Origin: Bacillota bacterium
Lineage (GTDB): Bacteria > Bacillota > Thermincolia > Thermincolales > UBA2595
Assembly: GCA_021847735.1 (NCBI GenBank)
Contig: JAJZQD010000014.1
Location: 1-40,015 of the forward strand
DNA: 40,015 bases
Direction of reading: 5' to 3'
Shown here: one piece after another, positions 2,081 through 37,849 of the stretch
Layout of the letters: each line of letters begins with the position of its first letter
Position numbering within the stretch: position 1 is the stretch's first letter
Notes under the pieces: generated by a model
What the model was told of the DNA's origin: nothing
Seen by the model: the letters and a program-made list of their open reading frames with translations, nothing else
Databases searched by the model: none
Position numbers and translations under genes: made by a program

Positions 2081-2100
2081 ATTTCTCACTCCCTTCACAA

Positions 2101-2568
2101 CTAGTTTAAACTAGCCGAATCGTGTATTTCACAAATAACAAGATCAATTATCCGGGGTACCAGGGATGCCAGGTCGGGGGTCAGTTCCATCCCCCATGAA
2201 ATGTCTTTTGGTTGAATTCCGATAATGACCGTTTCCGGACAGCGGTCTAAAAACCTGGCAATTTTCAGGGTGTCAAAGAGGTCTACCTGATGTAAGGAGG
2301 TTTTGTGTTCCCTCAACTGACCCTTTACTTCATCGGCATTAAAGCGAAATACTGTGCCCGGCCGATCCCCGGCATCAATAGCATCTACGATGATAAGCTT
2401 GTCGGCTTCTTCAATAACTTCCAGCAAATCGATGCCGGAAACGCCTCCGTTGACCAGCTTAACATTGTTCGGCAGAAGCATTCGTTCCATTGCTCCGATT
2501 ACATGTACACCTATACCCTCATCCTTTAGTAAAACATTACCAACGCCGAGAATTAATATCCTGTTCAT
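2101..2568 (-). CDS. Hydrogenase maturation endopeptidase (HyaD/HybD family)
   Basis: A 155-residue protein from the ATG at 2568, preceded by GGAG six bases upstream; another in-frame ATG lies at 2580. It begins MNRILILGVGNVLLKDEGIG, the family signature. The nickel-sensing acidic residues (DEGIG, VDAIDAG) and the conserved histidine (TSLHQVDL) are all present. These enzymes remove the C-terminal peptide of the large subunit after nickel insertion; the large subunit encoded just upstream has such a 15-residue tail. No hyp accessory genes are in the window, so the rest of maturation must be encoded elsewhere. The gene lies between the large-subunit gene and the FeS gene, in the same orientation. 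Confidence 0.93.
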   Translation of the reverse strand: MNRILILGVGNVLLKDEGIGVHVIGAMERMLLPNNVKLVNGGVSGIDLLEVIEEADKLIIVDAIDAGDRPGTVFRFNADEVKGQLREHKTSLHQVDLFDTLKIARFLDRCPETVIIGIQPKDISWGMELTPDLASLVPRIIDLVICEIHDSASLN

Positions 2569-2598
2569 GTTTTTCTCCATAGTCCCCGTTATCGTTGA

Positions 2599-4146
2599 CT
2601 AGATTACCCTGAATTTTAATATTTCGTTGGTTTCCGGATGAATCAAATGGACAGCGCAGGCAATACAGGGATCGAAGGAACGGACAATCCGCACAACATT
2701 GAGGGGATTCTTGGGGTCAGGTACAGGCGCCCCAATCAAAGCCTGCTCAACAGGTCCCTTTACTCCTTTGTCGTCCCTGGGCGAACAATTCCACGTGGTC
2801 GGGACAACACACTGGTAGCGTTTACTCTTTCCGTTTTCGATTTCCACAAAGTGTCCCAGCGCGCCTCTGGCAGCCTCAACAAGGCCCATGCCCTTACCGG
2901 ACTGAGGTACTGCTTTTTCGTTACATACCGGCTTGCCTGGCTTTAATTCACCCAGCCAGTTCAACATTCCCTCAGCCACCATTTTGCATTCATAAGCCCT
3001 GGCTGCATGACGGGCTACTGCCGAAGGCCACGCTCCGACCTTGGTCACCAGGTCCATGAACCCTTTGTCCTGGGTTACCAGCATCCTGGCCAGAGGACCG
3101 ACTTCCATAGGTTGATTGTCATATCTGGGAGCCTTAAGCCATGAATAGGCACCTTCTTTGGTTGGTTCCGGGTTTGTCTCACCCTCTGATGGGTGTTTCC
3201 CTGTCCCACTGTCCTTGTACCATGAATATTTAACATATTCTGCAATCTTATTCGGGTCGAGGGGGTTTACCTGGCCAATATTCCCGCCGAAAATAGTCCC
3301 TGATTTCAGGAAGCGGTTGGTGTAATCGCCGGATTTCCCCTGGTCGAAGTTCCCGTAAGCGAGGAAATTACCGCATCCGAAACCAATTTTGGCATCATGA
3401 ATCGGCTTAAGTGGCCCGGTGCCAAAGAGTAGAACATCCTTCAAGTAAACATTATTGACAAAATCGATCAATTCCAGGAGACGGCTGCGGAATGCAGCAA
3501 TCCGGTCCGGCGTCGGTTGAATCGTAACTCCGCCGGCGACAAAGGTGGTATGGTGGGGCATTTTGCCGCCGAAAATGGCCAGCATTTCCTGTCCCTTTTT
3601 CCGCATCTCCAGAGCCTGAATATAATGGTATACGGCTGTTGTGACTATTTCAGGGTCGTTGACGCAAAACTGGTCCGGGTTGTACCGCGGGGTTAACGGT
3701 GAAGTGTCACCCGTTTTGACCAATCCCACTATCTTATCCTTAACCTTAAGTAGTTCCGGGCTGCTTCCCTTGTACCCGGCTATTGCCATTATATCCAGAT
3801 AATCGAGGGCGGCCAGATGATAGAAATGTAGAATATGAGAAGCTACAAAGTTACTACCTGCCACCAGGTTCCGGATAATCCGCCCGTTATCAGGCACTTC
3901 TGCGCCAAAGGCCATGTCAAGGTTCTGAACTGAAGCATGGGCGTGTTCAGCCGGGCAGACTCCGCAAATACGCTGAGTAATAACCCCGGCATCACGGGGG
4001 TCTCTGCCCTCTAAAATCACCTCAAACCCACGCCAAAGAGTTCCTGCAGCTCTAGCATCGACGACTTTTCCACCGTCTACTTCCACTTCAATTCTTAAGT
4101 GACCCTCAATCCTGGTGATAGGGTCTATGACAATCTTTTGTGCCAA
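2599..4146 (-). CDS. [NiFe] hydrogenase large subunit
   Basis: A 515-residue catalytic subunit starting at a TTG with an AAGGGGG SD eight bases upstream. The proximal nickel motif RICGVCPAEHA (Cys61, Cys64) and the distal motif DPCIACAVH near the C-terminus provide the four cysteine ligands; neither position is selenocysteine. The residues after the last His (LIHPETNEILKFRVI, 15 aa) are the predicted maturation peptide removed by the protease encoded downstream. ITRIEGHLRIE at the N-terminus is the other family hallmark. Only 3 nt separate it from the small-subunit gene. Together with Tat-exported partners, this is a group 1-type respiratory uptake hydrogenase facing outward. Confidence 0.97.
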   Translation of the reverse strand: MAQKIVIDPITRIEGHLRIEVEVDGGKVVDARAAGTLWRGFEVILEGRDPRDAGVITQRICGVCPAEHAHASVQNLDMAFGAEVPDNGRIIRNLVAGSNFVASHILHFYHLAALDYLDIMAIAGYKGSSPELLKVKDKIVGLVKTGDTSPLTPRYNPDQFCVNDPEIVTTAVYHYIQALEMRKKGQEMLAIFGGKMPHHTTFVAGGVTIQPTPDRIAAFRSRLLELIDFVNNVYLKDVLLFGTGPLKPIHDAKIGFGCGNFLAYGNFDQGKSGDYTNRFLKSGTIFGGNIGQVNPLDPNKIAEYVKYSWYKDSGTGKHPSEGETNPEPTKEGAYSWLKAPRYDNQPMEVGPLARMLVTQDKGFMDLVTKVGAWPSAVARHAARAYECKMVAEGMLNWLGELKPGKPVCNEKAVPQSGKGMGLVEAARGALGHFVEIENGKSKRYQCVVPTTWNCSPRDDKGVKGPVEQALIGAPVPDPKNPLNVVRIVRSFDPCIACAVHLIHPETNEILKFRVI

Positions 4147-4149
4147 CTG

Positions 4150-5256
4150 TTACACCCCCTTGTTTTGAGATTTGTCTTTGGCTTTATCTTTAGTTTTTTC
4201 GTTGGCCAGGTAAATCCCTCCGGCAGCTGCGGCAGCCCCGGCTACAGCACCGCCAAGGCTGGCCCCGAAGGTGCCGATAGCGCCTGTGCGCTTGTCTGTT
4301 TCCGCCGCCTTAATCGTTTTGGCCACCTCGGGTATCGCTTCATAAAGGGGTGTTTGGGGAAAGGTAGGCTCCACACAGCCTGCACACGGGGAGCCGGCGG
4401 AAATACAGAAGTTGACCCCGCTGTTCCATAAACGGTGCGGGCAGTCCGCCGAAGTTATCGGCCCCCGGCAGCCTTTGGCGCCCATACAGCCTTCAATATC
4501 CGGAAGTTCTTCACCCAGGTTTTTAATAAATTGGCCTTGCTCATATCCTCCCCGCCGTGGGCAGTTTTCGTGAATCAGTCTGCCGTAGAACAGTTTAGGC
4601 CTGTTATACTGGTCTAAGGCCGGAACCTGTCCAAACAGTAAAATATTGACTACTGTACCAACCAGCCAGTCCGGATGGGCCGGGCAGCCGGGAATATTAA
4701 CTACAGTACCCCCGATAACGTCTTTCAAACCTTTACAGCCGGTGGGGTTGGGCCCGGCAGCGGGAACTCCTCCAAAGGAAGCGCAGGTTCCCAAGGCCAC
4801 TTTGTAAGCCGCACCTTCGGCCACTTTTTGAACCATACTCAGGAAGGTTTTCCCACCAATCTTGCAGTAAATACCGTCATCCTTAGTGGGAATAGCCCCT
4901 TCCACAACCATTACATATTTGCCCTTAAATTGCTTGATGGCATCGTCCAGACCCTGTTCGGCCACTTCGCCGCTGGCGGCCATCAGTGTCTCATGGTACT
5001 TGACAGAAAGCCTGTCCAACACCAGTTCGGCCACTGACGGGTAGTTGGAGTTGGCAAAGGAGACAGTGCATCCGGTGCATTCCGCCCCATGCAGCCAAAT
5101 CACGGGCAGCTTTTTTGAGGCCACCTGTTCCAGGGCGCTGGCGATTTGAGGTACATACATCTCTGAGAGCCCTAGCAGTACTGCAATGCTGGAACTGTAC
5201 TTTATAAAATCCCTTCTGCTGAATTCTTTCTTAAACATCTTTTCCAGTTCAAACAT
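4150..5256 (-). CDS. [NiFe] hydrogenase small subunit with Tat signal
   Basis: The chosen ATG at 5256 has GGAGG 13 bases upstream; an upstream ATGATG pair at 5292/5289 has no SD but cannot be excluded. From 5256 the protein is 368 residues and its twin-arginine motif SRRDFIK falls near residue 14, as usual for Tat signals. Proximal-cluster ligands are in AECTGCT, GTCASFGG and PGCPAHP; later His/Cys residues (HENC, GCMGAKGC, ADCPHR, SPCAGC) supply the distal and medial clusters. A C-terminal hydrophobic helix (roughly the last 45 residues, rich in Gly/Ala) is followed by a Lys/Asp-rich tail and would anchor the enzyme to the membrane. It is the first gene of the sigma-54-type operon. Confidence 0.95.
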   Translation of the reverse strand: MFELEKMFKKEFSRRDFIKYSSSIAVLLGLSEMYVPQIASALEQVASKKLPVIWLHGAECTGCTVSFANSNYPSVAELVLDRLSVKYHETLMAASGEVAEQGLDDAIKQFKGKYVMVVEGAIPTKDDGIYCKIGGKTFLSMVQKVAEGAAYKVALGTCASFGGVPAAGPNPTGCKGLKDVIGGTVVNIPGCPAHPDWLVGTVVNILLFGQVPALDQYNRPKLFYGRLIHENCPRRGGYEQGQFIKNLGEELPDIEGCMGAKGCRGPITSADCPHRLWNSGVNFCISAGSPCAGCVEPTFPQTPLYEAIPEVAKTIKAAETDKRTGAIGTFGASLGGAVAGAAAAAGGIYLANEKTKDKAKDKSQNKGV

Positions 5257-5424
5257 GAAATCATAGACACCTCCCTGCTTTTTTTTCATCATTAAAATAA
5301 AAACGGGTTAACTGACTTGTTATGCCACCGCCTTTCAGGCACTAAATTCCCGGAGTAACAAGGTAACCCATTAGCAGTCGGGCTCTAACAACAATGTTCT
5401 CCCCGGAATTTCGGCCTTTTAGGT
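5257..5424 (-). other. Distal leader of the hydrogenase operon
   Basis: This stretch lies between the triple-hairpin repeat and the chosen small-subunit start. Its first 36 bases downstream of the alternative ATG at 5292 could be coding. The rest is AT-rich close to the gene and contains no second recognisable promoter; I searched for TGG-N9-TGC and TTGACA/TATAAT patterns on the minus strand. It would therefore be transcribed as untranslated RNA from the promoter at 5570-5585. No terminator or known riboswitch was recognised. Confidence 0.5.
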
Positions 5425-5722: not shown

Positions 5723-7927
5723 TTATTCTGACTGGGCAAGACCGTACTTCTTAAGTTTTTGGTACAACGTTACCCTCGTAATTCCCAATAGCTTGGCAGC
5801 CATGACTTTGTTGTTTTTTGTCCTCTGAATAGCCTCTACGATTAACTGGCGTTCCACCTCTCTGACGGTGTCCTTCATGGGCTTGAGTTCAATGGCCGAG
5901 GGGTCGCGCCCGAGGGCTTGAATATGGGGAGGGAGGGTATCTGGGCGGACAACATTGCCTTCAGCCAGGAATTGCGCCCGCTCAATAATGTTCTCCAGTT
6001 CCCGCACGTTACCCGGCCAGGAGTACTTTAACAGCAATTCCATCGTCTCTTCGGAGAAGACCTTCGGGGAAACGTTCTTTTCTCTGGATATTTTTTCAAC
6101 GAAGTACCCTATCAGCAGCGGGATATCCTGATTACGCTCCCTAAGGGGCGGAACATACAATGGTAAAACATTGAGACGGTAAAACAGGTCAATCCTGAAC
6201 TTTCCTTCGGAGATTAGTCTGCGGAGGTCCTTATTGGTTGCCGCGATTACCCTGACATCAAATTTGATGACCCTGGTCCCGCCCACCCGTTCAAACTCCC
6301 TTTCCTGGAGAACTCGTAGGAGTTTGGCCTGCATGGTTAGGGGGAGGTCCCCGATTTCGTCAAGCAGCAGGGTGCCCCCGTTGGCCAGTTCAAATTTCCC
6401 CGGTTTTCCACCCTTACGGGCGCCGGTAAAGGCGCCTTCTTCATATCCGAAGAGCTCCGATTCCAGCAGCAGTTCAGGTAATGCTGCACAGTTTATCGCT
6501 ACAAAGGGTTTTTTACTGCGGGAACTGATATTATGGATGGCCTGGGCTACAATTTCCTTGCCGACCCCGCTTTCTCCCTGGAGCAGAACTGTGGAATTGC
6601 CGACAGCCGCTTTTTCTGTAACCTTTTTGAGATTAACAATAATGGGGCTTTCTCCTATAATGGTATCCAGAATGTACCTGCTTGCCTTTGGGAGATTAAG
6701 CCGGTCGCGGTAGTATTCAATTTCTCCGCGGGACTTGGCCAACAAATACGGCAGACACATGTCCGTTTCGGCCAGACCCTGGTACACCGCAATCGCCTTT
6801 TCCCGGCACGTTTCATAACCGCACGACCCGCAGTTCAGTTCATCTTCGGGTGTGGTCTTGTAGGTATGTTTCAGGATTTCCTTAATCTCCTTTTCCGTCG
6901 GAAAAGGCAATATAACTGAGCGGTCAATAAATTCCCGGCTCAGGTCCAGGCTTGGCAGTTTTTCGCTGAGTTTGGGACGTAATTTATGGGAATACTGCAG
7001 TACCAGCTCTTTACGGGAAAACAAATCAATGTCGGTATCAATTTCGGGACCGTCAACACAGCCTTTGCAAAAAAGGATGTCCAGAAACCCGGGCGCAATT
7101 TTACCCTGGCTGAGGTTCTGAATTACCTCAACACAGTCGTCTTTACCTTCAATGATAGACAGTTCCGGAATAATTTCCCCTTCCAGCCCCAGGTTCTTTA
7201 ATAACCCGCCGGAAACCGGAAAAATCCTCGGCAAAACCTGTCCGGCTTCCTTTACAACATCTTTCTTCGGTTCCAGTTTAATGTCGTGTTCCTCGAACAT
7301 GCATTTTAACTCTCTGAAGGTCAGGACTGCATTAACCAAATTGCGTTTATCACTGCGGGACTCCTCTTTTTTGGCCACACAGGGACCAATAAAAACTACC
7401 TGGGCATATTTATTCTTCCTGCGTACATATTTGGCTGTTGCCATTACAGCTGAATCGATGGGCGCCAGCATCGGGATAAGGTTGGGGTAGTGACGTTCGA
7501 TCAGGCCGACTACGGCCGGACAGTACGAAGAAATCACCGTACCGGGGTGTTTGCTTAGATAGTCTTTATACTCTGGTACCGTGAGTTTGACCCCTATGGC
7601 AACCTCTTCCACGGAACTAAAACCGAGTTTGATTAGGGCGGAAACCATTTCCCCGGCCTCTATCCCGGGGAAGGCGGCAGGAAATGAAGGGGCCAGCATG
7701 GCCACTGTTGTCTGGGTCTTTAAGTAAACCCTGACCGAATCCATATCGCGATTATCAATTTTTTTAGCCTTTTGGGCACAGACCCTCACGCAGTTGCCAC
7801 AACTGATACACCGGTCATCCACAATTACGGCCTGGCCGTCTTCAACCTTGATGGCTTTGGCCGGACAATTGCGGATACAGGAATAACAGGTCTGGCACTT
7901 TTCCTGGATTGTAACCACTACACCCAT
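5723..7927 (-). CDS. Sigma-54-dependent activator with [FeFe]-hydrogenase-like sensor domain
   Basis: A 734-residue protein. Residues 1-60 hold two ferredoxin-type clusters (CQTCYSCIRNCP, CISCGNCVRVC). Residues about 75-320 resemble the H-cluster domain of iron-only hydrogenase: SSYCP (Cys136) for TSCCP, GPCVAKKEE (Cys183) for MPCxxKxxE, and FCKGCVDGP (Cys287/290) for the third motif. The usual proton-transfer cysteine is Tyr, and the last motif is CxxC rather than CxxxC, so catalysis is unlikely and sensing is inferred. A further four-Cys FeS motif follows (CGSCGYETC...C391). The AAA+ domain has Walker A GESGVGKE (451-458) and the sigma-54 loop GAFTGA (498-503), then a Fis-type helix-turn-helix at the C-terminus. 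No REC or PAS domain is evident. It lies directly upstream of the sigma-54 promoter of the hydrogenase operon. Confidence 0.93.
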   Translation of the reverse strand: MGVVVTIQEKCQTCYSCIRNCPAKAIKVEDGQAVIVDDRCISCGNCVRVCAQKAKKIDNRDMDSVRVYLKTQTTVAMLAPSFPAAFPGIEAGEMVSALIKLGFSSVEEVAIGVKLTVPEYKDYLSKHPGTVISSYCPAVVGLIERHYPNLIPMLAPIDSAVMATAKYVRRKNKYAQVVFIGPCVAKKEESRSDKRNLVNAVLTFRELKCMFEEHDIKLEPKKDVVKEAGQVLPRIFPVSGGLLKNLGLEGEIIPELSIIEGKDDCVEVIQNLSQGKIAPGFLDILFCKGCVDGPEIDTDIDLFSRKELVLQYSHKLRPKLSEKLPSLDLSREFIDRSVILPFPTEKEIKEILKHTYKTTPEDELNCGSCGYETCREKAIAVYQGLAETDMCLPYLLAKSRGEIEYYRDRLNLPKASRYILDTIIGESPIIVNLKKVTEKAAVGNSTVLLQGESGVGKEIVAQAIHNISSRSKKPFVAINCAALPELLLESELFGYEEGAFTGARKGGKPGKFELANGGTLLLDEIGDLPLTMQAKLLRVLQEREFERVGGTRVIKFDVRVIAATNKDLRRLISEGKFRIDLFYRLNVLPLYVPPLRERNQDIPLLIGYFVEKISREKNVSPKVFSEETMELLLKYSWPGNVRELENIIERAQFLAEGNVVRPDTLPPHIQALGRDPSAIELKPMKDTVREVERQLIVEAIQRTKNNKVMAAKLLGITRVTLYQKLKKYGLAQSE

Positions 7928-18996: not shown

Positions 18997-20076
18997 CTAA
19001 TAATATTTCATTATTTCATATTTAGTATTCCGCTGAGCCGGCTTGTAACCTGCGTCGAAGATACTACTAATTATTTCATCTATGGGAACCCTGTAACTAA
19101 CTCCGGCCGCCCTGACTACATTCTCTTCCAGCATTGTGCCGCCGAAGTCGTTGGCACCAAAGCTTAGGGATACCTGGGCCATCTTTGCCCCCTGGGTCAC
19201 CCACGAGGCCTGGATGTTAGGTACGTTATCAAGAAGCAATCTGGACACGGCCAGAGTTTTTAGGTAGTCAATACCGGTCGCTGTTTCCCCGCCGAGGTCA
19301 GTATTGGACGGTTGGTAACTCCAGGGAATAAAAGCCCTGAAGCCCCCAGTCCGGTCTTGGGCATCCCTGACCCTAATAAGGTGCATGACCCTTTCCTCGA
19401 GGGTCTCCACACTGCCAAACATCATGGTGGCCGTAGTCTTCATACCCAGTTCGTGGGCGGTGGTCATGACTTCCATCCATTCTTCCCAGGTAATCTTGTG
19501 CGGGCTGATGTACTTCCTGACTCTATTGTCCAGGATTTCCGCACCGCCTCCGGGAATGGAATCCAGACCGGCCGCCTGTAATGTTTGGATTACTTCGCGC
19601 ACCGGTAATCCGGAAAGGCGGGAAAAATGCGCAATCTCCGGCGGGGAAAAGGAGTGAACATGAATATCGAAACGCTCTTTGATTGCTTTAAGCATGTCCA
19701 CGTAGAATGAGAGAGGCAGGTTGGGATGAAGTCCCCCCTGCATTAGAATCTGAGTTCCCCCACACTCCTGTGTTTCCCTGATTTTAGCAAATATCTCCTC
19801 ATTTTTCAAAACGTAGGCATCCGGGTCGTCTGCCGACCGATAGAAGGCACAGAACCTGCACTTAGTCTGGCAGACATTTGTGTAATTAATATTACGGTCA
19901 ATGACAAACGTAACAACTGGTTCAGGATGTATTCGTTTCTTCACGGAGTTTGCCGCTAGACCCATTAAGACTAACTGATCTGATTTTAACAAGGCAACCC
20001 CGTCTTCAAGGCCAATTCGTTCACCGGCAACAGCCTTCTCCAGGATTTTTAAAACTAAATCAGCCAATTTTTTCAC
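18997..20076 (-). CDS. mqnC: Cyclic dehypoxanthinyl futalosine synthase MqnC
   Basis: A 359-residue radical-SAM enzyme with the cluster motif CQTKCRFCAFYR, conserved GGTQILMQGGLHPNL and GLDSIPGGGAEIL, and a C-terminal KPAQRNTKYEI. It catalyses the cyclisation step of the futalosine route to menaquinone. The GTG start at 20076 overlaps the end of mqnA by 17 nt, so the two are coupled. It is distinguished from MqnE, encoded two genes upstream, by motif details and by both being present together, as expected for the pathway. The next gene downstream is tatA, after a gap of 57 bp. Confidence 0.95.
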   Translation of the reverse strand: MKKLADLVLKILEKAVAGERIGLEDGVALLKSDQLVLMGLAANSVKKRIHPEPVVTFVIDRNINYTNVCQTKCRFCAFYRSADDPDAYVLKNEEIFAKIRETQECGGTQILMQGGLHPNLPLSFYVDMLKAIKERFDIHVHSFSPPEIAHFSRLSGLPVREVIQTLQAAGLDSIPGGGAEILDNRVRKYISPHKITWEEWMEVMTTAHELGMKTTATMMFGSVETLEERVMHLIRVRDAQDRTGGFRAFIPWSYQPSNTDLGGETATGIDYLKTLAVSRLLLDNVPNIQASWVTQGAKMAQVSLSFGANDFGGTMLEENVVRAAGVSYRVPIDEIISSIFDAGYKPAQRNTKYEIMKYY

Positions 20077-20911
20077 CCCAGATATTTAGCTTAACCCGCT
20101 CCTTTATCAACCCGCTTTTATAAGCATAGTCGTAAAAAGTGAGGATGGCTTTCTGTTCTGTTTCACCAAATTCGTACTGGATAGTTTGAAAATACTCCTC
20201 CAAAACCTTTTGGGGTAAAGCCGTTTTGGTTTTAGCTTTTTCAATGAGGGCCGGAATGTTGGCGAAACCGTAATTCTTGGCTTCAACAAAAGCCTGGCTG
20301 ATAAACTTGATGTCTTCCGGGTGTTCTTCAACAAACTTCCTGTGGATTACCCAAAGGGCATAAATCATTTTCTGACCCGTAAATTCATGCCAGGCCCGGC
20401 CCAGGTCCGTTACAAAAAGTGATTTGCGGCCCCAATTAAGGTCCCCTGCCCTGGTTATCAGGGCGTCGTCGCCAATAAGCAGGGCCGCGTCAGCTTTCTT
20501 GAGCATCTGATGTAAGCCGGGTTTTTGCACAGAATATTGAACCTGAATCTGGTAATAATGCTCAAACAATATTTTCAGCAGGGCAACGGAAGTCGCCGAA
20601 GAACTTGGCAGGCAAACCTCAAGTCCGTCAAGCTCGGTTACCGGAACTTTGCTAAAAAGCAGAATACTTTCCACGTTACAGTCTGCACTGATAGAAAGGT
20701 TAGGCAGAATCGTGGCAATATCGCTATGCCGGGCATACTCAATAGATGATATAGGTGTGATATCCAGTTTTCCGTCAATGAACATTTCATTGAGTTTGGT
20801 AGGAGGGCCTTTCACCATTTTTGCCTCAAGAGGCACGTGCCCGTTTTCAATGGCATAGTAAACAGGTAAACAGTTGATATAGTCAACCTGGCCGAGCCGG
20901 ATTTTTTTCAC
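20060..20911 (-). CDS. mqnA: Chorismate dehydratase MqnA
   Basis: A 283-residue protein of periplasmic-binding-protein fold but without a signal peptide: KKIRLGQVDYINCLPVYYAI at the start, then FIDGKLDITPISSIEYARHS and VCLPSSSATSVALLKIL. This matches MqnA, which dehydrates chorismate to 3-enolpyruvoylbenzoate, the first step of the futalosine pathway. MqnD has a similar fold, but the N-terminal VDYINCLPVYYAI and the location between mqnE and mqnC favour MqnA. It starts at a GTG one base after the mqnE stop and overlaps mqnC. No mqnB or mqnD gene was found in the window. Confidence 0.92.
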   Translation of the reverse strand: MKKIRLGQVDYINCLPVYYAIENGHVPLEAKMVKGPPTKLNEMFIDGKLDITPISSIEYARHSDIATILPNLSISADCNVESILLFSKVPVTELDGLEVCLPSSSATSVALLKILFEHYYQIQVQYSVQKPGLHQMLKKADAALLIGDDALITRAGDLNWGRKSLFVTDLGRAWHEFTGQKMIYALWVIHRKFVEEHPEDIKFISQAFVEAKNYGFANIPALIEKAKTKTALPQKVLEEYFQTIQYEFGETEQKAILTFYDYAYKSGLIKERVKLNIWGEKIG

Positions 20912-20912
20912 T

Positions 20913-22016
20913 CTAAAAACCCTCCTCCAGGATATTATAAAGGGTATCCCTTTCCGCCGGGATGCGCCCTGCAGCTTTAACCATTCTCACCATCTGCAGT
21001 TTTGTCAGCGACTGACCCGTGTCAGCCCCAGCGGCATGGGTTATTTTTTCTTCAACTACGGTACCGTCGATGTCATCGACCCCAAAGGCCAGTGATACCT
21101 GGGCCAGCTTCGGGCCTATCATAATCCAGAAAGCCTTGATGTGGTCAAAGTTGTCAAGCATCAATCTGGCCACAGCCAATACCTTTAAATCTTCGTATCC
21201 GGTACTACGGCTTAATCCCTGGTCCTCCAGCCCGGTATTTTTAGGGTGGAATGCCAGGGGGATGAAAGCAAGGAAACCCCCTGTCCTGTCCTGTAGTTCC
21301 CTTAACCTGATGAAATGGTCAACCCGTTCTTCCACAGTTTCAATATGCCCGTACAACATAGTGGCGTTTGTCCTCATGCCAAGCCGGTGTGCAGTTTCGT
21401 GAACCTCCAGCCACCTGTCGCCGCTGATTTTCTTCTCACAAATCCGGTCTCTTACCCGTTGGGAGAAAACCTCCGCGCCGCCGCCGGGCAGGGAGTCCAA
21501 ACCCGCTGCCATGAGCCGCCGCAGTACTTCCTCGAAGGAAATTTCCTCAGTCTGGGCAAAATAATCAATTTCCACAGCGGTAAAAGCCTGAATCACCACC
21601 TTGGGCAAGGCCCGCCGGACTCTCCTGAGCATTTCCTCGAAGTACTCCAGCTTTAGGTCTGGGTTCAGACCTCCGACAATGTGCACCTCAGAAATCCCTT
21701 GGCCCCTGCATTCCAGGGACTTAGCCTCTACCTCTTCTAGGGTCATGGTGTAGGCTTCCGGGTCATCGGCTTTCTTGCCAAAGGCACATAGCTTGCAGAG
21801 ATTGGCACAGATATTTGTATGGTTAATGTGCCGGTTAACAATAAAATAGGCATAGTCCCCGTTTTTTCTCCGGCGTATTAAATCGGCCATATAGCCAATC
21901 GTCAATAATTCGCTGGATTCCATAAGCCTAATACCGTCTTCCCTGCTGAGCCTGTCCCCTTTTTCAACTTTTTCTACTATATCCAAAAGTTTGCTGTCTG
22001 TAAGCAGCTTGTTCAT
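20913..22016 (-). CDS. mqnE: Aminofutalosine synthase MqnE
   Basis: A 367-residue radical-SAM protein from the ATG at 22016, with AGGAGG six bases upstream; a longer reading to 22088 would overlap ubiX by 50 nt and lacks support. Motifs are CANLCKLCAFGK for the cluster, SEVHIVGGLNPDL, and GLDSLPGGGAEVF. The product joins 3-enolpyruvoylbenzoate to SAM to make aminofutalosine. The CAFGK variant and the HIVGG motif separate it from MqnC. The gene is part of the mqnE-mqnA-mqnC block. Confidence 0.93.
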   Translation of the reverse strand: MNKLLTDSKLLDIVEKVEKGDRLSREDGIRLMESSELLTIGYMADLIRRRKNGDYAYFIVNRHINHTNICANLCKLCAFGKKADDPEAYTMTLEEVEAKSLECRGQGISEVHIVGGLNPDLKLEYFEEMLRRVRRALPKVVIQAFTAVEIDYFAQTEEISFEEVLRRLMAAGLDSLPGGGAEVFSQRVRDRICEKKISGDRWLEVHETAHRLGMRTNATMLYGHIETVEERVDHFIRLRELQDRTGGFLAFIPLAFHPKNTGLEDQGLSRSTGYEDLKVLAVARLMLDNFDHIKAFWIMIGPKLAQVSLAFGVDDIDGTVVEEKITHAAGADTGQSLTKLQMVRMVKAAGRIPAERDTLYNILEEGF

Positions 22017-22038
22017 CCTAATCCTCCTGACTCTTACT

Positions 22039-22650
22039 CTAACCTTCCCACCTCTTAAAAAGGTTATGTTCCACATTAAGTAAATCAAACACTTTGCCTA
22101 CAACAAAATTAGCAAGGTCATCAATTGTTTGCGGTTTCTGGTAAAAAGCCGGGGCAGCCGGGACAATGTGAACCCCTGTCCGGGCTAAATCCAGCATATT
22201 CTTCAGGTGTATCGCATTAAAAGGTGTTTCCCTCGGTACGACAACCAACGGGCGGCGTTCTTTGAGCATCACGTCGGCGGCTCTTTCCACCAGATTCCCG
22301 GACGCCCCGGCAGCAATACCGGACAGGGTGGACATTGTACAGGGAATAACAATCATCCCGTCCGTTTTGTTAGAACCACTGGCTATACATGCTCCGATAT
22401 CTCGATAATTGAAATACTTAATCTTTGCCGGTCCACGCCGGTTCAGGCAGGCCAGTACATCCCGCACAAAGTCCGGGTCGTCGAGGGGCGGTAAGTCCCA
22501 TAACAATTCCTCCCGGAGCACCCTAAGACCAGGTTCTGTTACGGTGAGCAGTATATCATGATTCAGGTCCAGCAGTGCCAGAAGCATATTGCGAGCATAT
22601 ATAGCTCCACTTGCTCCTGTAACCGCTACAATAAAAGCAGCCATTCTCAC
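22039..22650 (-). CDS. UbiX-type flavin prenyltransferase (MqnL-like)
   Basis: A 203-residue flavoprotein starting IVAVTGASGAIYARNMLLAL, with GSNKTDGMIVIPCTMSTLSGIA, RAADVMLKERRPLVVVPRETP and a C-terminal PAFYQKPQTIDDLANFVVG. All are hallmarks of UbiX/Pad1, which makes prenylated FMN for UbiD-type decarboxylases. In futalosine-pathway bacteria the paralogue MqnL serves the MqnM decarboxylase, and the neighbours mqnE and ubiA fit this role. No UbiD-like partner is in the window. The GTG at 22650 is taken as start; an ATG two codons later is also possible. Confidence 0.93.
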   Translation of the reverse strand: MRMAAFIVAVTGASGAIYARNMLLALLDLNHDILLTVTEPGLRVLREELLWDLPPLDDPDFVRDVLACLNRRGPAKIKYFNYRDIGACIASGSNKTDGMIVIPCTMSTLSGIAAGASGNLVERAADVMLKERRPLVVVPRETPFNAIHLKNMLDLARTGVHIVPAAPAFYQKPQTIDDLANFVVGKVFDLLNVEHNLFKRWEG

Positions 22651-22659
22651 ATCACCCGC

Positions 22660-23556
22660 CTAAATGGAAATCCTGGCCCCAAACATGATATCGGCAAGGG
22701 TAAAAACAAACATTAAAACACTGAGGATACCGTTCATATTAAAAAAGGCGGCATTAATTTTGCACAAATCGGTTGGCGAAACCAATGAATGTTCGTAAAT
22801 GAAAATACCCGCAGCGATAATTACGCCAACCCAGTAAAAATAGCCCAGGTGCAGGGTCAAACCGGCCCAACCGAGGAAAAGTACGGTGAGTGTATGCAAT
22901 ATGGATGACCCCGTCAAAGCCGTTTTTAAACCAAATTTAGCCGGAATAGAATACATTCCCTGAGCATAGTCAAATTCATAATCCTGGCAGGCGTAAATCA
23001 GGTCAAACCCCGCCACCCAGGTTAATACGGCAAGTCCAAGCAGGACAGCCGGAAACTCAAACCGCCCCGTCACCCCTACCCAGGCTCCTGCCGGGGCTAG
23101 TCCGTCCGCCAGTCCCAGCACCAGGTGACATGTCCATGTAAACCTCTTAGTATAAGGATAAACCGTCAGAACCAAAACTGCAATAGGCATGAGTTTGACA
23201 GTCAAAGGAACACTCTGGTGCAGTGGATTTAACTGCCATGCCGAAACCAACAGTAAAGCCCATGAAGCGGCAACGTACAGCCAGACCTCAGGAACTGACA
23301 GCAGCCCCAATGGTATAGCCCGGTTGGCTGTACGGGGGTTGCGGGCATCTATATGCCTGTCTATCAAACGATTTAAGGCCATGGCGGCCGTTCTGGCGCC
23401 TACCATGGCCAAAGTAATCCAAAGTAGTTGATATCCCGAAGGGATACCCTTGCTCGCCAAAAAGGCTCCTAAATATGCAAAGGGCAAGGCAAAAATCGTA
23501 TGTTCAAATTTAATCATTTCTGAAAAGTGCCGGACCCTTTTAAATACCATATCCAT
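22660..23556 (-). CDS. UbiA-family polyprenyltransferase (MqnP-like)
   Basis: A 298-residue membrane protein with about eight or nine helices. The first aspartate motif is NRLIDRHID (residues 62-70) and the second lies in YACQDYEFDYAQGMYSIP; both bind prenyl diphosphate through Mg2+. The start (HFSEMIKFEHTIFALPFAYLGA) is typical of the UbiA/MqnP group. By context it prenylates the naphthoate-type intermediate of the futalosine pathway. It lies 17 bp after the menG fusion gene and 9 bp before ubiX. Confidence 0.92.
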   Translation of the reverse strand: MDMVFKRVRHFSEMIKFEHTIFALPFAYLGAFLASKGIPSGYQLLWITLAMVGARTAAMALNRLIDRHIDARNPRTANRAIPLGLLSVPEVWLYVAASWALLLVSAWQLNPLHQSVPLTVKLMPIAVLVLTVYPYTKRFTWTCHLVLGLADGLAPAGAWVGVTGRFEFPAVLLGLAVLTWVAGFDLIYACQDYEFDYAQGMYSIPAKFGLKTALTGSSILHTLTVLFLGWAGLTLHLGYFYWVGVIIAAGIFIYEHSLVSPTDLCKINAAFFNMNGILSVLMFVFTLADIMFGARISI

Positions 23557-23573: not shown

Positions 23574-25148
23574 TTACTCCTTGGTTGCCGCCACCGAAGA
23601 AACGGGGGCTGCCAAAGGCTTTACTCCCAGGTGTACGGAAACCACGCCGCCGGTAAGTTCGTAAAAGGTGGCTTCCTGCAGCCCCTGACGGGTAAACTCG
23701 TCACGCAATTCCTTTTGGTGGGGAAAAGCCTTCCACGAGTTGTGCAAATACCTGTACGGCCCCTCGGTCCCCACACCAAGTTTTCCAAGGAAGGGAACCC
23801 ACTTATTAAAATAAAAGTTATAAACCTGCTTAAACACCGGAACCGTAGGCTTGCTAAACTCGAGGCAGACAACCCGCCCCCCCGGCTTTACGACCCGGGC
23901 CATCTCCCGGACAGTCTTTGGCATGTCCGGGACATTCCGAAGACCGAATCCAATTGTGGCTGAATCAAAGGTATTATCAGGGAAGGGAAGCTCCATAGCA
24001 TTTCCCTGGACATATTCAACATTATTTTCATATGATGCGCCTTTTAGAGCCTCTTTCGCGATATCCAGCATTTCCTGGCAGAAATCAAGACCTACGACCT
24101 TGCCTGTAGGCCCGACCTTTTTTGCCAGTTCCCTCGTTATCATTCCTGTCCCGCAGCATACATCAAGAACAGTACCGCCGGTCTCAAGCCCTGTCTGTTC
24201 TACTGTAAACTTTCTCCAATACTTGTCCTGGTTCAAACTAAGGACTGTATTAAGAGTATCATATTTTTTAGCGATAGCCGAAAAAATGGAATGTACATAC
24301 TCTTCCTTATCTTTATATTCTACGGGAACAATCATATCCCCAATCTGCCTCTGGTCAGGGTCTTGGCTTCGTCCGATTTTTTTTGCGGGCACAGGCAGTT
24401 CCCCATTTTGTATTATTACCAGCAACTCTTCCAGCCCGTCTCTCCCTTCCCCTTCAGGCAATTCCTCCAGGGCCTTGCGGGCCTTGTCGAAATACGGGCC
24501 GGCCATTACAGGGTCCAGGCTGCGTTCAAGGATCCCATAAGCCATGCCAAAATTGCGGCCAAAATCCGCCAGTCTGGTCACTTCAACCTGCGGTGCCCCG
24601 GCAAGCATGCCGGCTATCCTGGCCGAACCCTCGGTAAGCAGGGCGGTTTCCTTTTCTATTACTGTCATGGCCAGATTCACATCAGCCATTAGGCGATTAG
24701 CGTTCTTTTTCCTTAGCAGCGCACCATGATTAATTTCAGCAATGATGTTTGAAAGGGGGCTTAGAAACTCCAGAATCTGTCCTTCACAAAGCCCGGTAAA
24801 ATACCAGCCGTACAGGTAATCCCCGACCAACACCGGGAATTGCGCCCCATCTCTCGGATCTAAACCTGCCACTGGCTGAACCCTTTCATCGGGAATCCTC
24901 AAATGAATGCTGGAAGCCTGGTAGATAAGCTGAATAACACTTGCCAGATAGATGAGTTTTTCCCCGCTGTATTTAAAAAGTCTTCCAGAAAACAAAACCA
25001 GGGCCGGATGCAAGTATTTCTGCAGTGACTCAAGATCGAAATGGGCGAACTTGCTCAGGTGCCCGGGTTTAATTTTTAAAGCCTTTTCTATTTTCTGGTC
25101 CACGGAGTTTAAATCCAATCGGATCAATTCCAGGAATCCCGCAGCCAT
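23574..25148 (-). CDS. menG: Degenerate polyprenyl synthase-like domain fused to MenG/UbiE methyltransferase
   Basis: A 524-residue protein from the ATG at 25148 (SD AGGGGG). Residues about 45-250 follow the trans-polyprenyl diphosphate synthase pattern (HPALVLFSGRLF, LVGDYLYGWYFTGLCEGQI, FGRNFGMAYGILERSLDP). However, the first aspartate-rich motif reads IHLRIPDE where active enzymes have HDDxxDE, and the second reads ILERSLD where they have xxDDxLD, so this domain should be inactive. Residues about 275-510 are the SAM-dependent methyltransferase: YDTLNTVLSLNQDKYWR, VLDVCCGTGM, LDFCQEMLDIAKEAL, GFGLRNVPDM, which methylates demethylmenaquinone. It is the first gene of the menaquinone operon. 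The dead domain may bind the prenyl substrate or pair with an active synthase; that is inference. Confidence 0.9.
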   Translation of the reverse strand: MAAGFLELIRLDLNSVDQKIEKALKIKPGHLSKFAHFDLESLQKYLHPALVLFSGRLFKYSGEKLIYLASVIQLIYQASSIHLRIPDERVQPVAGLDPRDGAQFPVLVGDYLYGWYFTGLCEGQILEFLSPLSNIIAEINHGALLRKKNANRLMADVNLAMTVIEKETALLTEGSARIAGMLAGAPQVEVTRLADFGRNFGMAYGILERSLDPVMAGPYFDKARKALEELPEGEGRDGLEELLVIIQNGELPVPAKKIGRSQDPDQRQIGDMIVPVEYKDKEEYVHSIFSAIAKKYDTLNTVLSLNQDKYWRKFTVEQTGLETGGTVLDVCCGTGMITRELAKKVGPTGKVVGLDFCQEMLDIAKEALKGASYENNVEYVQGNAMELPFPDNTFDSATIGFGLRNVPDMPKTVREMARVVKPGGRVVCLEFSKPTVPVFKQVYNFYFNKWVPFLGKLGVGTEGPYRYLHNSWKAFPHQKELRDEFTRQGLQEATFYELTGGVVSVHLGVKPLAAPVSSVAATKE

Positions 25149-25211
25149 CAATGTACCCCCTAAGAAATTTTAACTTAATATATATTCGTTGCACCAAAAA
25201 TAAATCCTCCC

Positions 25212-26686: not shown

Positions 26687-27553
26687 TTAAATCAGGTTTA
26701 ACGACTGGAGCAGCGGCTTAGCGTCAACATAAAGCTTGTCAAAACCAAGTTTATCTAGGGGAATCCCCATGGCAAGACCAATTAACTGGGTAAAGTATAT
26801 AACAGGGATATTGAAATTAGTTTTATATTTCTTGTTGATTTGTGACTGGCGCATATCAAGGTTCATTTGGCACATAGTACATGCTACCACAATGGCTTTG
26901 GCCCCGGAATCCTTGGCCACTTGGAGAATATCACGGCCAGCCTTCCACACTGCATCCTGGTTGGTGAAACAAAGGGAAGCGCCGCAGCACTCGGTTTTAT
27001 AGGGCCAGTCAATGGACTCCACGCCAAGGGTACCCATTATCTTTTCAAGGGATGTGGGGTTTTCGGGGTCATCAAAGAAACCAAAAGTTTTCGGAGGCTT
27101 AACCAGGGCACATCCATAATAGTTTACTACTTTCAAGCCCTTTAGCGGCTTCTTGACAATCGAAGAATCAACCCTATCAAAAAACACTTCAATGAGGTTC
27201 TTTATTTTCATGTCACTGTCTTCAAATTTCTGCCCCAGGGCGTTCTCTATATGCTGTCTCATCTTGGGGTTTTCATTGAAGTCTTTCTGGGCCAGATAGT
27301 GCCTGACATAGCACGCCGGGCACGGGGCGGTAAACTCATCGCAGCCGCTGCCTTCGGCCTTCAATACGTTCCTGGCCGGCAGGGCAAAAGAGAGAAAATG
27401 CCCGGTACTATGGGCGGAGGTCCCCCCACAGCAGTTCCAGTCCGGCACCTCAACAATGTCAATCCCCAGGGGACCGCTAATAGCCTTGATTGATGTATCT
27501 AATTCCTTTGACGAACCGCTTAGACCGCAGCCCGGATAGTAAGATAGCTTCAC
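26687..27553 (-). CDS. HdrB-like CCG-domain protein
   Basis: A 288-residue protein with two complete CCG motifs: Cys9, Cys41-Cys42, Cys78/Cys81 (YYPGCG, NCCGG, CPAC) and Cys148, Cys189-Cys190, Cys225/Cys228 (YYGCAL, ECCGAS, CTMC). These bind the non-cubane [4Fe-4S] clusters of heterodisulfide reductase subunit B and related oxidoreductases. It lies 5 bp after the HdrC-like gene, so the two form an HdrCB unit, but no HdrA (flavin) gene is in the window. In non-methanogens such units serve other thiol or quinone redox tasks; the substrate is unknown. It starts at a GTG. Confidence 0.9.
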   Translation of the reverse strand: MKLSYYPGCGLSGSSKELDTSIKAISGPLGIDIVEVPDWNCCGGTSAHSTGHFLSFALPARNVLKAEGSGCDEFTAPCPACYVRHYLAQKDFNENPKMRQHIENALGQKFEDSDMKIKNLIEVFFDRVDSSIVKKPLKGLKVVNYYGCALVKPPKTFGFFDDPENPTSLEKIMGTLGVESIDWPYKTECCGASLCFTNQDAVWKAGRDILQVAKDSGAKAIVVACTMCQMNLDMRQSQINKKYKTNFNIPVIYFTQLIGLAMGIPLDKLGFDKLYVDAKPLLQSLNLI

Positions 27554-27558
27554 TCAAA

Positions 27559-28125
27559 TCACTCTCCAATCTTCTTGGCATAATCATAGAGTTTCTTTAT
27601 CTCATTCAGGCCCTTTACGTTATGTGGAAGGAGGTTAAGCTTGCCCTTAAGGAACATGGGTAAGCCAATATCGGTGTCCTGCAGCAGGTTGCCCGTCCCC
27701 AGGTTAAGACCGAGGGCCAGGCCAACTTCATATAGCCTTCCATGGTTTTTAATAGAATTCATAAAGGTCGTATGGAATACATGCATGTTCTTACCCTTAC
27801 CAACAATGCCCTTGTGATACGCCATGACCCTAAGGGTATCCATCAGTTTGGCTATATCGATATCCCTCGGGCAGCGGGTTGTACATGTGGCACAGGTAGC
27901 GCAGGTCTGAATAGTAAAGCTGTTAAGTACCTCGTCAATCAACCCGTCCTGAAGCATCCGCATAATCTGGCTGGGTGGGTAGTCCATCGTAAACTGCATC
28001 GGGCACCCGCCGGTACATTTCATGCATTGAAAACACTGACCGGGATTTTGGCCGCTTTCTTCTTGCAGTTTCCGCAGAAAATCTTTGTTCTTGTCTAATG
28101 TCTGCGTAACGTTAATCTCTCTCAT
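27559..28125 (-). CDS. HdrC-like 4Fe-4S protein
   Basis: A 188-residue protein with two ferredoxin-type motifs: CFQCMKCTGGCP (Cys31-41) and CATCATCTTRCP (Cys75-85), followed by a helical C-terminal domain. This is the layout of heterodisulfide reductase subunit C, which passes electrons to the CCG subunit encoded next. The ATG at 28125 has a GAGGGG SD. No membrane helix is present, so it is the soluble rather than the HdrDE-type partner. The gene begins this short operon; its upstream 240 bp hold only a weak hairpin. Confidence 0.9.
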   Translation of the reverse strand: MREINVTQTLDKNKDFLRKLQEESGQNPGQCFQCMKCTGGCPMQFTMDYPPSQIMRMLQDGLIDEVLNSFTIQTCATCATCTTRCPRDIDIAKLMDTLRVMAYHKGIVGKGKNMHVFHTTFMNSIKNHGRLYEVGLALGLNLGTGNLLQDTDIGLPMFLKGKLNLLPHNVKGLNEIKKLYDYAKKIGE

Positions 28126-33954: not shown

Positions 33955-36900
33955 TTAGATGAACTTGGCCTTAGCAAGCATATTCTTGATCATTACCGCC
34001 GATTCGGCCCTGGTGCTGTTACCGGCCGGTGTGAAGGCGCCATTGGTGTTTCCTTTGATGATGCCGTTTTTGGCGGCAGCGGCGACCACTGTCCTGGCCC
34101 AGGAATCGATTTTCGCCCCGTCTTTGAACTGGGCTATGTACTGGCCGGTTTCCTCTGCCGTAACAGATGTATCCTGCCCGGCAACCTTCAGGGCTTGTAC
34201 TACCATAGCCGCTACTTCTTCCCTGGTTACAAAGGCGTTGGGCTTGAAGGTCCCGTCGGTATAACCCTTGATAACACCTGCATCAACTGCCGCGCCTACG
34301 GCCCCCGCGAACCAGTCACCGGCTTTGACATCACTGAATACCGCTTTGGACGCATTGGACTCTATACCCAATGCCCTGACAATCAGGGTGGCGAACTGCG
34401 CCCTGGTTATTTTGTTTTCAGGGGCATAAGTGCTGTTGGTGATGCCTGTGATAATCATTTTGGAAGCCAGCGAATTTATGTCGTCTTTAGCCCAATGGGT
34501 GCTGACATCGGCAAAACTCTTGCTGTGCTGCACCACAGTATAGGTACTGTTGGTTTTCCGTTTGATGACAGCCACATTTTTGCCGTTTTCCACCGTAAAC
34601 TGGGTAGGCACCGGCGACAGGGTGCCGTCTGCGTTGAGTACTGCTCCCACCGCCAGGTTGGCGTTAACCGGTGACGGAAGAATAATACTTCTGTTCACAT
34701 AGCTGTTAAAACCATTGATTTCTATAGTTTTGCCCGCTGCTGTGCCTTCCACCTTAAAATCAACAGGAGTTACCAACTGGGTCAAACCATTCTGGCTGGC
34801 ATACCGCTGAATTGTGGCAGTTTGCCCTGCGGTAGCTTGTGCAATGACAATGTTTAGTGTGACATCTCTGGCCGGGACTCCCAGTTGTTGGGCGATATTT
34901 GCTATATTGATTTCCTGGCCCGGCAGGGTATACGAACCGTTAGAAGCCTCAATTTCCATAGAAGCATCCTTGTTGACAAGGGCTGTCACGATATCACCTG
35001 GAATTTCGGCCTTTACTACATTGGCGGCGGCATTCACAGGAATCACCACGATGCTGCCAACCACACTCTGGCTGATAGTATTTATTACCGTGGAAGAATT
35101 TAGGGTAACAGTTGCCGTCGAACGGTTGTTATCTGTTCCCAATGAAGTTCTCGTTGCATCGGTAGGTAGAGATACTTTATTATCTGCAGGCTTGGTTGCT
35201 ACAGGAGTAACCGGGTTCGTATTCGATGATGAACTCCCCGAACTCCCTTCCGTCTGGCGTTGGGTCACTGTATACCGGCTAAAGTGGTTAACATCAAAGG
35301 TCAGTGTTTTGGCGCCTACATCCAAGTATACGTCGCTGGCTACCCCAGTATAGGAACTGCTACTAATATTGACAGCTTGAAAAGGAACATTCAGCATCGT
35401 GACTGAGGCGCCTTTTTCAGCCAGGAACGTGGCTGTTTCGGCATTTACTTCAACATAATACTGGCTGTTTTCGCCACTGACTATGTTGATATCCAGGGCA
35501 GCCAGGTCATTGGTATCTTCCATAAAGTTTAAGCCGGGATTAAATTCAATACTTCCATATTCACTACGGGTGAATGTAATGGCTTGTTCAGTTTCGTACA
35601 GGTCATTAAACTCGCTCAAATCAGGAGTAGATGTCACATCAGCCAGCGGAATGTATATGCTGACAATAGCCATTTTGCCTGCCGCGTTTTGGAATGCCAT
35701 TGGTCCTGTTGACGCAGTATAATCCGTGCTGCCGTCTTCCGAATAGAGTTTAACTGCAAGAGTCCCGGTCGGCAGGGTGGTGTTATCGGGGTTATATACT
35801 GTTTCCGAAATATTCAGGGTACCCCCGGTAATGGTATCCAGTACGTAATAGTAAGGCCCTGAATAAGTCATGTCGTTTACTACCGGTTTTGCAGGCTCAA
35901 ACCCGTTTGGGCCCATGACTCCCAATGCTACCCTGACTTGACCGTCCGGTATGCTGAGTCCGGAAAGCGATACCCCCAGGGAGTCTCCGTCAAAGTAAAC
36001 ATGGTCTGTGTCACTATCTGTGAAGGTAATGGTTGGCGCTCCCGGAGCAAAGTCCTGAATCGTCAGCACTGCGGTGCTCTGGTCGCCGATTTCGACTCCG
36101 CCGGATGGGTTACTGAGGGTCAGATTAACTGTCTCGCTGCCCTCGGTCAGTGCGTCGGTCACAACAGGAACGGTAAAGATTTTCGGATTCGCGTCACCGT
36201 CAGCAAAATAAACCGTCCCGACAGTGGTTATATAGTCCAGCCCTGCCGTGGCCGTGCCGTCACCGGTGCTATAAACCGCGCTGACCACCCCGTCGCTGCC
36301 GCCGGTGCGGGTGACTGTAACAGTTGCCACACCGGCGTTCTCCGCTACACTGTAAATGGCTGCGCTAAACTGCAGCCGGCCTGGCTGAGCAATCTCATCG
36401 TCATTAATGGTCAAAACCGCGGTGCTCCGGTCACCGAGGCCGGCGCCGCCCGTGGGGTCACTGAGAGCCAAAGTAACAGTCAGGTTACCTTCAATTAAAT
36501 CATCGGGTATGATCGGTATGGAAATCGTTTTGGGGTCTGTATCGAGGTTATCGAAGAACACCGTTCCCGTTGTATGAGTATAATCCCTTCCGGGTACTGC
36601 TGTATCGCCGCCGTCACCGGTGGCATAGACAACACTAACCACCCCGTCGCTGCCGCCGGTGCGGGTAACAGTGACTTCGGCAAAGCCGTCGTTTTCGGCC
36701 ACAGGGTAAGTGGGCGCACCGAACTGCAAGTGTCCGGGGAGCAGGGGAAGTGTCCCAATGAACTGTCCTCGACTTTCCGGAACATATCCAACTGCAATTG
36801 AATTTACAGTAATAGTTCTGGAAGCAGCATCAATGACAAAAACCGAACCGTTAACTTCGCCCTTAGTATTGGTAACATAGATGCTGGCACCGGTTGGGTC

Positions 36901-37791
36901 GATGGATATCCCACAGGGGCTGTCTGCCGGGTCTGGCATGTATATTGTGTCAAAGACGGTATTTGTATCAGCGTCTATAACCGAAACAGAAGGAGGATTT
37001 GCCCCATTAGCCACATATACATAGCTTCCGTCGGGGCTAACTGTCACTCCAAGCGGATAATCGCCGACCGTTGCTATTGATGAAATAACCTCATCCGTAG
37101 CTGTGTTAATAACTGAGACGATACCAGGAGAGTTATCCCTGTTTGTCACATATGCTTTGGTCCCATCAGGGCTAAAGCACACGTCGTAAGGGCTTGTCCC
37201 AACATTTATTGTTTTTGATACAGTATTTGTTGCCGCATCTATAACAGATACGTTATTGTTGCTATAGTTTGTAACGTAAATCTTGGTGCCGTCAGGGCTC
37301 ACCGCGACACCCCTCGGGCTAGCCCCGGCTCCCGTATTTACTGACGCATATACGGTATCATCGACAGTGTTTATCACAAAAACCGAGTCGCTATAACAGC
37401 TTGGCACATATGCCCAAGGTGAGACAGGGTTGCAGGCAACTGCATAAGGTCCGGGGTTAGAGCCTGTAATTAAGTCTATGGTAGTGGAAACGGTATTACT
37501 TGCGGAATCGACCACAGACACGGTGCCGTCACTGAAATTAGCGACATATACTTTTCTCCCGTCAGGGGTAATCCCTACCCCTTTGGGGGCACTTCCCACC
37601 GGAATGGTTTCAACTACAGTGTTGGTTGAGATATTGATTTTTGATACAGTACCGTCATTGTTGGCTATATAGGCAAAAGTTGGCGGCGCCACTGCCCCGG
37701 CAGGTACTGCAAAAGCGAACTGTGTCAGTATCAGAATCAGCGATAAAGCTATACTTGTCCACTTCTTTCTTCCGTCTCTGGTAATAGTCAT
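33955..37791 (-). CDS. Secreted YVTN beta-propeller / Calx-beta / SLH surface protein
   Basis: A 1,278-residue protein from the ATG at 37791 (AAAGGGG SD). A signal peptide (RRK-type n-region, hydrophobic core, end near AGAVA) is followed by seven YVTN-type blades between about 40 and 335 (YVANFSDGTVSVVD, YVTNYSNNNVSVID and others), enough for one propeller. Two Calx-beta domains follow (about 350-470 and 475-580), each with VTVTRTGGSDGVVS. Next come less clear beta-sandwich regions, a Ser/Asn/Thr linker near 875, and three SLH repeats at the C-terminus (FADVSTHWAKDDI, FSDVKAGDWFAGAV, FKDGAKIDSWARTV). SLH repeats anchor proteins to the pyruvylated cell-wall polymer, so it is displayed outside; adhesion or scaffold roles are plausible. 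It is monocistronic. Confidence 0.92.
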   Translation of the reverse strand: MTITRDGRKKWTSIALSLILILTQFAFAVPAGAVAPPTFAYIANNDGTVSKINISTNTVVETIPVGSAPKGVGITPDGRKVYVANFSDGTVSVVDSASNTVSTTIDLITGSNPGPYAVACNPVSPWAYVPSCYSDSVFVINTVDDTVYASVNTGAGASPRGVAVSPDGTKIYVTNYSNNNVSVIDAATNTVSKTINVGTSPYDVCFSPDGTKAYVTNRDNSPGIVSVINTATDEVISSIATVGDYPLGVTVSPDGSYVYVANGANPPSVSVIDADTNTVFDTIYMPDPADSPCGISIDPTGASIYVTNTKGEVNGSVFVIDAASRTITVNSIAVGYVPESRGQFIGTLPLLPGHLQFGAPTYPVAENDGFAEVTVTRTGGSDGVVSVVYATGDGGDTAVPGRDYTHTTGTVFFDNLDTDPKTISIPIIPDDLIEGNLTVTLALSDPTGGAGLGDRSTAVLTINDDEIAQPGRLQFSAAIYSVAENAGVATVTVTRTGGSDGVVSAVYSTGDGTATAGLDYITTVGTVYFADGDANPKIFTVPVVTDALTEGSETVNLTLSNPSGGVEIGDQSTAVLTIQDFAPGAPTITFTDSDTDHVYFDGDSLGVSLSGLSIPDGQVRVALGVMGPNGFEPAKPVVNDMTYSGPYYYVLDTITGGTLNISETVYNPDNTTLPTGTLAVKLYSEDGSTDYTASTGPMAFQNAAGKMAIVSIYIPLADVTSTPDLSEFNDLYETEQAITFTRSEYGSIEFNPGLNFMEDTNDLAALDINIVSGENSQYYVEVNAETATFLAEKGASVTMLNVPFQAVNISSSSYTGVASDVYLDVGAKTLTFDVNHFSRYTVTQRQTEGSSGSSSSNTNPVTPVATKPADNKVSLPTDATRTSLGTDNNRSTATVTLNSSTVINTISQSVVGSIVVIPVNAAANVVKAEIPGDIVTALVNKDASMEIEASNGSYTLPGQEINIANIAQQLGVPARDVTLNIVIAQATAGQTATIQRYASQNGLTQLVTPVDFKVEGTAAGKTIEINGFNSYVNRSIILPSPVNANLAVGAVLNADGTLSPVPTQFTVENGKNVAVIKRKTNSTYTVVQHSKSFADVSTHWAKDDINSLASKMIITGITNSTYAPENKITRAQFATLIVRALGIESNASKAVFSDVKAGDWFAGAVGAAVDAGVIKGYTDGTFKPNAFVTREEVAAMVVQALKVAGQDTSVTAEETGQYIAQFKDGAKIDSWARTVVAAAAKNGIIKGNTNGAFTPAGNSTRAESAVMIKNMLAKAKFI

Positions 37792-37849
37792 TTGTTTTTC
37801 CCCTTTCAACGAGTATTCGGTACAAGAATGTTAAAAAGCCACCCCCCAA

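Follow-up and report, generated by a model that had tools for sequence, protein, structure and literature searches.

In heterodimeric prenyl diphosphate synthases, a catalytic subunit is combined with a dead subunit that is devoid of the DDxxD motif and controls the length of the product (PMC7839719). The hexaprenyl diphosphate synthase HexA/HexB of Micrococcus luteus (PDB 3aqb) and the plant GPPS small subunits follow this scheme, with product length set by a small, dead partner of the catalytic subunit (PMC7839719), and their small subunits are separate proteins that are not fused to a quinone methyltransferase. In Bacillus subtilis, the non-catalytic subunit HepS (PF07307; PDB 9kp1 chain A), a trans-prenyl-synthase fold without Asp-rich motifs, is encoded directly upstream of the gene for the demethylmenaquinone methyltransferase MenG, in the operon hepS-menG-hepT (PMC12903253). 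The locus described here shares with B. subtilis the dead prenyl-synthase fold, its position upstream of MenG and an intact HepT in the genome. However, its HepS-like domain is fused to MenG, stays under the PF07307 cut-off and is much closer in sequence to catalytic synthases than the Bacillus protein, and HepT is not adjacent. The MenG part is intact, scores over the NCBIfam cut-off and lies within a futalosine-pathway cluster, but the usual MenG/UbiE form is a stand-alone protein of about 240 amino acids. Since Bacillus is already known to encode dead component-I subunits beside menG, the locus is less novel than was implied, and its new feature is the fusion alone. A search of the openly licensed literature found no described HepS-MenG fusion, which is not proof of absence.

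Architecture of the fusion and lost catalytic residues

The window, that is, the whole stretch of 40,015 nucleotides that was analysed, covers positions 1 to 40,015 of contig JAJZQD010000014.1 (assembly GCA_021847735.1), a metagenome-assembled genome of the order Thermincolales that is 62% complete. Its features discussed here are collected in Table 1.

Table 1. The fusion gene, its parts and the neighbouring menaquinone genes (positions in the window; residues of the fusion protein)
Feature	Position	Strand	Basis or remark
HepS-like/MenG fusion gene	23574..25148	-	ATG at 25148; in-frame TTG at 25151
Ribosome-binding site AGGGGG	25156..25161	-	7 nt before ATG; read from the sequence
HepS-like, catalytically dead trans-prenyl-synthase domain	24402..25148	-	About residues 2-250, core 2-215; PF00348/TIGR02748, profile match to 9kp1_A, AlphaFold and Foldseek, tree
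Degenerate first Asp-rich motif, HLRIPDE for HDDxxDE	24885..24905	-	Alignment to HepT and PDB synthases
Conserved GDYLYG motif	24807..24824	-	Alignment including HepT
Degenerate second Asp-rich motif, ERSLD for DDxLD	24513..24527	-	Alignment to HepT
Interdomain linker	24315..24401	-	About residues 251-279; low pLDDT in both models
MenG (demethylmenaquinone methyltransferase) domain	23619..24314	-	Residues 280-511; PF01209 271 bits, NF001243 270 bits
MqnP/UbiA prenyltransferase	22660..23556	-	17 nt downstream of the fusion; order conserved in genomes of the taxonomic order
UbiX flavin prenyltransferase	22039..22650	-	Profile match
MqnE aminofutalosine synthase	20913..22088	-	Over cut-off; TTG frame start
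MqnA/MqnD-type menaquinone biosynthesis protein (VitK2_biosynth)	20060..20911	-	Profile match
MqnC cyclic dehypoxanthinyl futalosine synthase	18997..20076	-	Over cut-off

The fusion is read from a single uninterrupted frame of 525 codons, counted from the TTG. The ATG one codon further in appears the likelier start, because it is preceded by a ribosome-binding site and the relatives begin at the same place. The C-terminal half is an intact MenG, scoring above the NF001243 equivalog cut-off of 235 bits, and residues 7-217 match the polyprenyl synthetase family PF00348 (38.6 bits, cut-off 27) and score 60.7 bits against TIGR02748 (HepT), far under the equivalog cut-off of that model. The linker between the halves falls where the separate genes of relatives meet. 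An AlphaFold model of the N-terminal domain (pLDDT 87.7, pTM 0.87) returned polyprenyl synthases when compared with the PDB by Foldseek, with query TM-scores of 0.62-0.75. The full-length model, built on an alignment of only 10 sequences, is of low confidence (pLDDT 68, pTM 0.52), and therefore no statement is made on the arrangement of the domains.

In the alignment to HepT, the His and the last Asp of the HDDxxD motif are kept and the first two Asp residues are lost (HLRIPD), the second Asp-rich motif is degenerate too, and the IPP-binding GGKRxRP reads LQKYLHP. The RRG that follows the first motif, the Lys in KTA, the Gln preceding the second motif and the GKxxGxDL region in its entirety are missing as well. 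The attributes of an active HepT-type synthase, two DDxxD motifs and an IPP-binding GGKR, are not found in this domain. The GDYLYG motif is retained, with its Gly invariant and its Asp and Tyr near-invariant in HepS, solo and fused proteins, and is common to HepT too; the surviving residues, this motif included, look structural. The first-pass annotation of this DNA had proposed, from the letters and the translated frames, a prenyl-synthase fold that has lost both Asp-rich motifs joined to an intact MenG, and all three elements are borne out.

Relationship to HepS and conservation of the fusion

The distribution of the domain was followed across the phylum. Among 399 genomes searched, 106 contained a close MenG match; for 89 of these the genes around menG were read, and for 12 Bacilli the match coordinates served instead. 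The dead domain occurs as a separate gene of about 210-290 amino acids directly upstream of menG in 40 of the 89, several of which show a 4-bp overlap between the two genes, and as the fusion in 10. In the 12 Bacilli, a PF07307 HepS gene is adjacent upstream of menG. No HepS-like gene was present at this place in the other 39 neighbourhoods read, 6 of which carry HepT just downstream of menG instead. Several of the genomes with a separate gene resemble the window further in that speD immediately precedes, and mqn/ubi genes immediately follow. Further fusions were suspected in G364, G376, G073 and other genomes with long open frames at menG. The frame examined in detail (G364, L160) proved to be separate overlapping genes, and G073 and G376 each show HepS as a match of its own upstream. 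Taken together, the gene neighbourhoods indicate that the fusion derives from HepS-like and MenG parts that other Firmicutes keep as neighbouring separate genes.

Assignment of the dead domain to HepS is supported by the family more than by the window's own copy, which scores 14.1 bits against PF07307 (E 0.036), under the cut-off of 30, and better against catalytic synthases than against HepS. The same model matches 16 of 28 family members at E<=0.01 (best 3.7e-7); separate-gene members of two genomes reach or exceed its cut-off, among them the solo protein adjoining menG in G254, which exceeds it at 30.1 bits. A profile of the family hits B. subtilis HepS, whose structure is solved (9kp1_A), at 4.8e-8. 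The tree, whose branches are long, places the separate and fused domains together with Bacilli HepS and apart from HepT and FPP synthases (support 99/93), and a p-AU of 0.065 does not strictly reject a grouping of the family with HepT instead. By hhalign the family aligns far better to HepT than to Bacilli HepS. This greater likeness to HepT than to the fast-evolving Bacilli HepS fits a less derived small subunit. The survey identifies, in Firmicutes beyond the classical Bacillus group, a wide family of dead prenyl-synthase subunits encoded upstream of menG, most of which the curated HepS model does not detect.

The fusion itself is real and conserved in the order. It is present at full length and without internal stops in 9 of 9 genomes of the family and in 10 of 10 of the order and class, with orthologues 57-73% identical to the window's protein, which rules out a missing stop codon or an assembly error as its origin. 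The fused domains form a single clade (support 99/94), consistent with one fusion event. Pairwise dN/dS is 0.03-0.12 for MenG where computable and 0.08-0.17 for the dead domain, which is therefore under strong purifying selection and not a decaying pseudogene. With a model that matches prenyl synthases and a fusion of full length in all ten genomes, neither an unrelated N-terminal structure nor a missing-stop artefact, the two outcomes that the first-pass annotation had named as contrary to its reading, applies here. Six of the relatives (L018, L019, L020, L021, L022 and L040) carry a second, unfused MenG in other surroundings, 50-54% identical to the fused one and over the MenG cut-off in all three that were scanned (L018, L020, L040).

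The proposed HepT partner and the role of the fusion

The search for an active prenyl synthase called for in the first-pass annotation found an intact HepT-type synthase in the same genome, on contig C101 (L001:1139-2212) and not on that of the window. It has orthologues of 75-78% identity in all four relatives whose HepT contigs were compared. A strong HepT-type match was found in 29 of 30 genomes searched, nearly all of which have the dead domain adjoining or fused to menG; the exception (G007) is 75% complete. In most of the 29 this synthase is the sole one of its type, accompanied by a weaker match that is FPP-synthase-like. When distance trees of the HepS-like and HepT proteins were compared for co-evolution, the partial r was 0.19 (p 0.06), a value that is no more than suggestive. 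The genome of the window also encodes an FPP synthase (C19) and a second HepT-like synthase (L002:1402-2379, contig C158). As judged by eye, the latter adjoins genes for a UbiA-like membrane protein and a geranylgeranyl-reductase-like oxidoreductase, and it perhaps serves another isoprenoid.

The 40 genomes in which the domain occupies the hepS position as a gene of its own, the matches to PF07307 and B. subtilis HepS and the intact HepT elsewhere lead us to read the gene, with a probability of roughly three in four, as a HepS-type (component-I) non-catalytic subunit of a heterodimeric trans-polyprenyl diphosphate synthase fused to MenG, with the HepT encoded elsewhere as its partner. In this model, the N-terminal domain would pair with the HepT of contig C101, which would supply both Asp-rich sites, and would stabilise the dimer and shape the tunnel by which menaquinone tail length is determined. 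Attachment of the tail would then fall to the neighbouring MqnP/UbiA enzyme, and the MenG half would carry out the final SAM-dependent methylation. The fusion would fix the HepS domain and MenG at 1:1 and may hold tail synthesis and ring methylation within one complex. Binding to HepT, control of chain length and any channelling are steps that we infer from the comparisons above. Against this reading count the closer likeness of the window's own domain to catalytic synthases, the position of HepT on another contig and the presence of the second HepT-like synthase in the genome.

An extension of this model, which we regard as tentative and rather doubtful, is that the domain, besides serving HepT as its HepS subunit, would act as a scaffold: the fusion would recruit HepT and MqnP/UbiA into a menaquinone-finishing metabolon, channel either the prenyl diphosphate or the prenylated quinone among HepT, MqnP/UbiA and MenG, and thereby couple tail length to ring methylation. 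The conserved operon with MqnP directly downstream agrees with such a complex, and complex formation would explain more easily why two non-consecutive steps are joined. However, that these steps are not consecutive, the middle enzyme being a separate membrane protein, also counts against channelling through the fusion.

The prenyl-synthase fold family has a hydrophobic product tunnel, and the substrate of MenG bears a polyprenyl tail. A dead domain covalently linked to MenG, with its active-site residues gone, could thus be a module that binds the lipid tail, offers demethylmenaquinone to the methyltransferase and serves no prenyl synthase any more. We consider this improbable, since 40 genomes encode the domain separately at the hepS position and MenG works there without covalent attachment, a HepT-type partner is kept in nearly all carriers, and six relatives possess a MenG that is not fused. 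Of the two roles suggested in the first-pass annotation, that of a regulatory subunit of a heptaprenyl synthase is therefore favoured and well supported, while the holding of the demethylmenaquinone tail finds no specific support. Finally, a recently inactivated HepT copy, fused to MenG by chance and now a decaying or merely structural remnant, would agree with the profile likeness to HepT but is very improbable for a domain that evolves at a dN/dS of 0.08-0.17, is free of stops in 10 of 10 genomes and is widespread as an intact separate gene.

To our knowledge, there is no settled explanation for the Bacillus gene order hepS-menG-hepT. A natural fusion argues for HepS and MenG working in one place, and it allows the reason for the position of menG between the two hep genes of Bacillus to be tested.

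Other genes of the window

In the menaquinone cluster downstream of the fusion, the true start of MqnE is probably further in than the TTG of its frame. A pair of HdrB/HdrC-like genes (26687-28125) adjoins the cluster and may form a redox module linked to quinones; its HdrB-like member is similar to the membrane-anchor subunit of 8-methylmenaquinol:fumarate reductase (167.7 bits, under the cut-off of 500). One gene (5723-7927), located upstream of an operon for a NiFe hydrogenase (334-5292), combines an iron-only hydrogenase large-subunit C-terminal domain, a sigma-54 activator and a Fis-type HTH in a single protein, which is likely a hydrogenase-like sensor regulator. At 33955-37809, the window encodes a surface protein of 1284 amino acids with a beta-propeller, Calx-beta and three SLH repeats.
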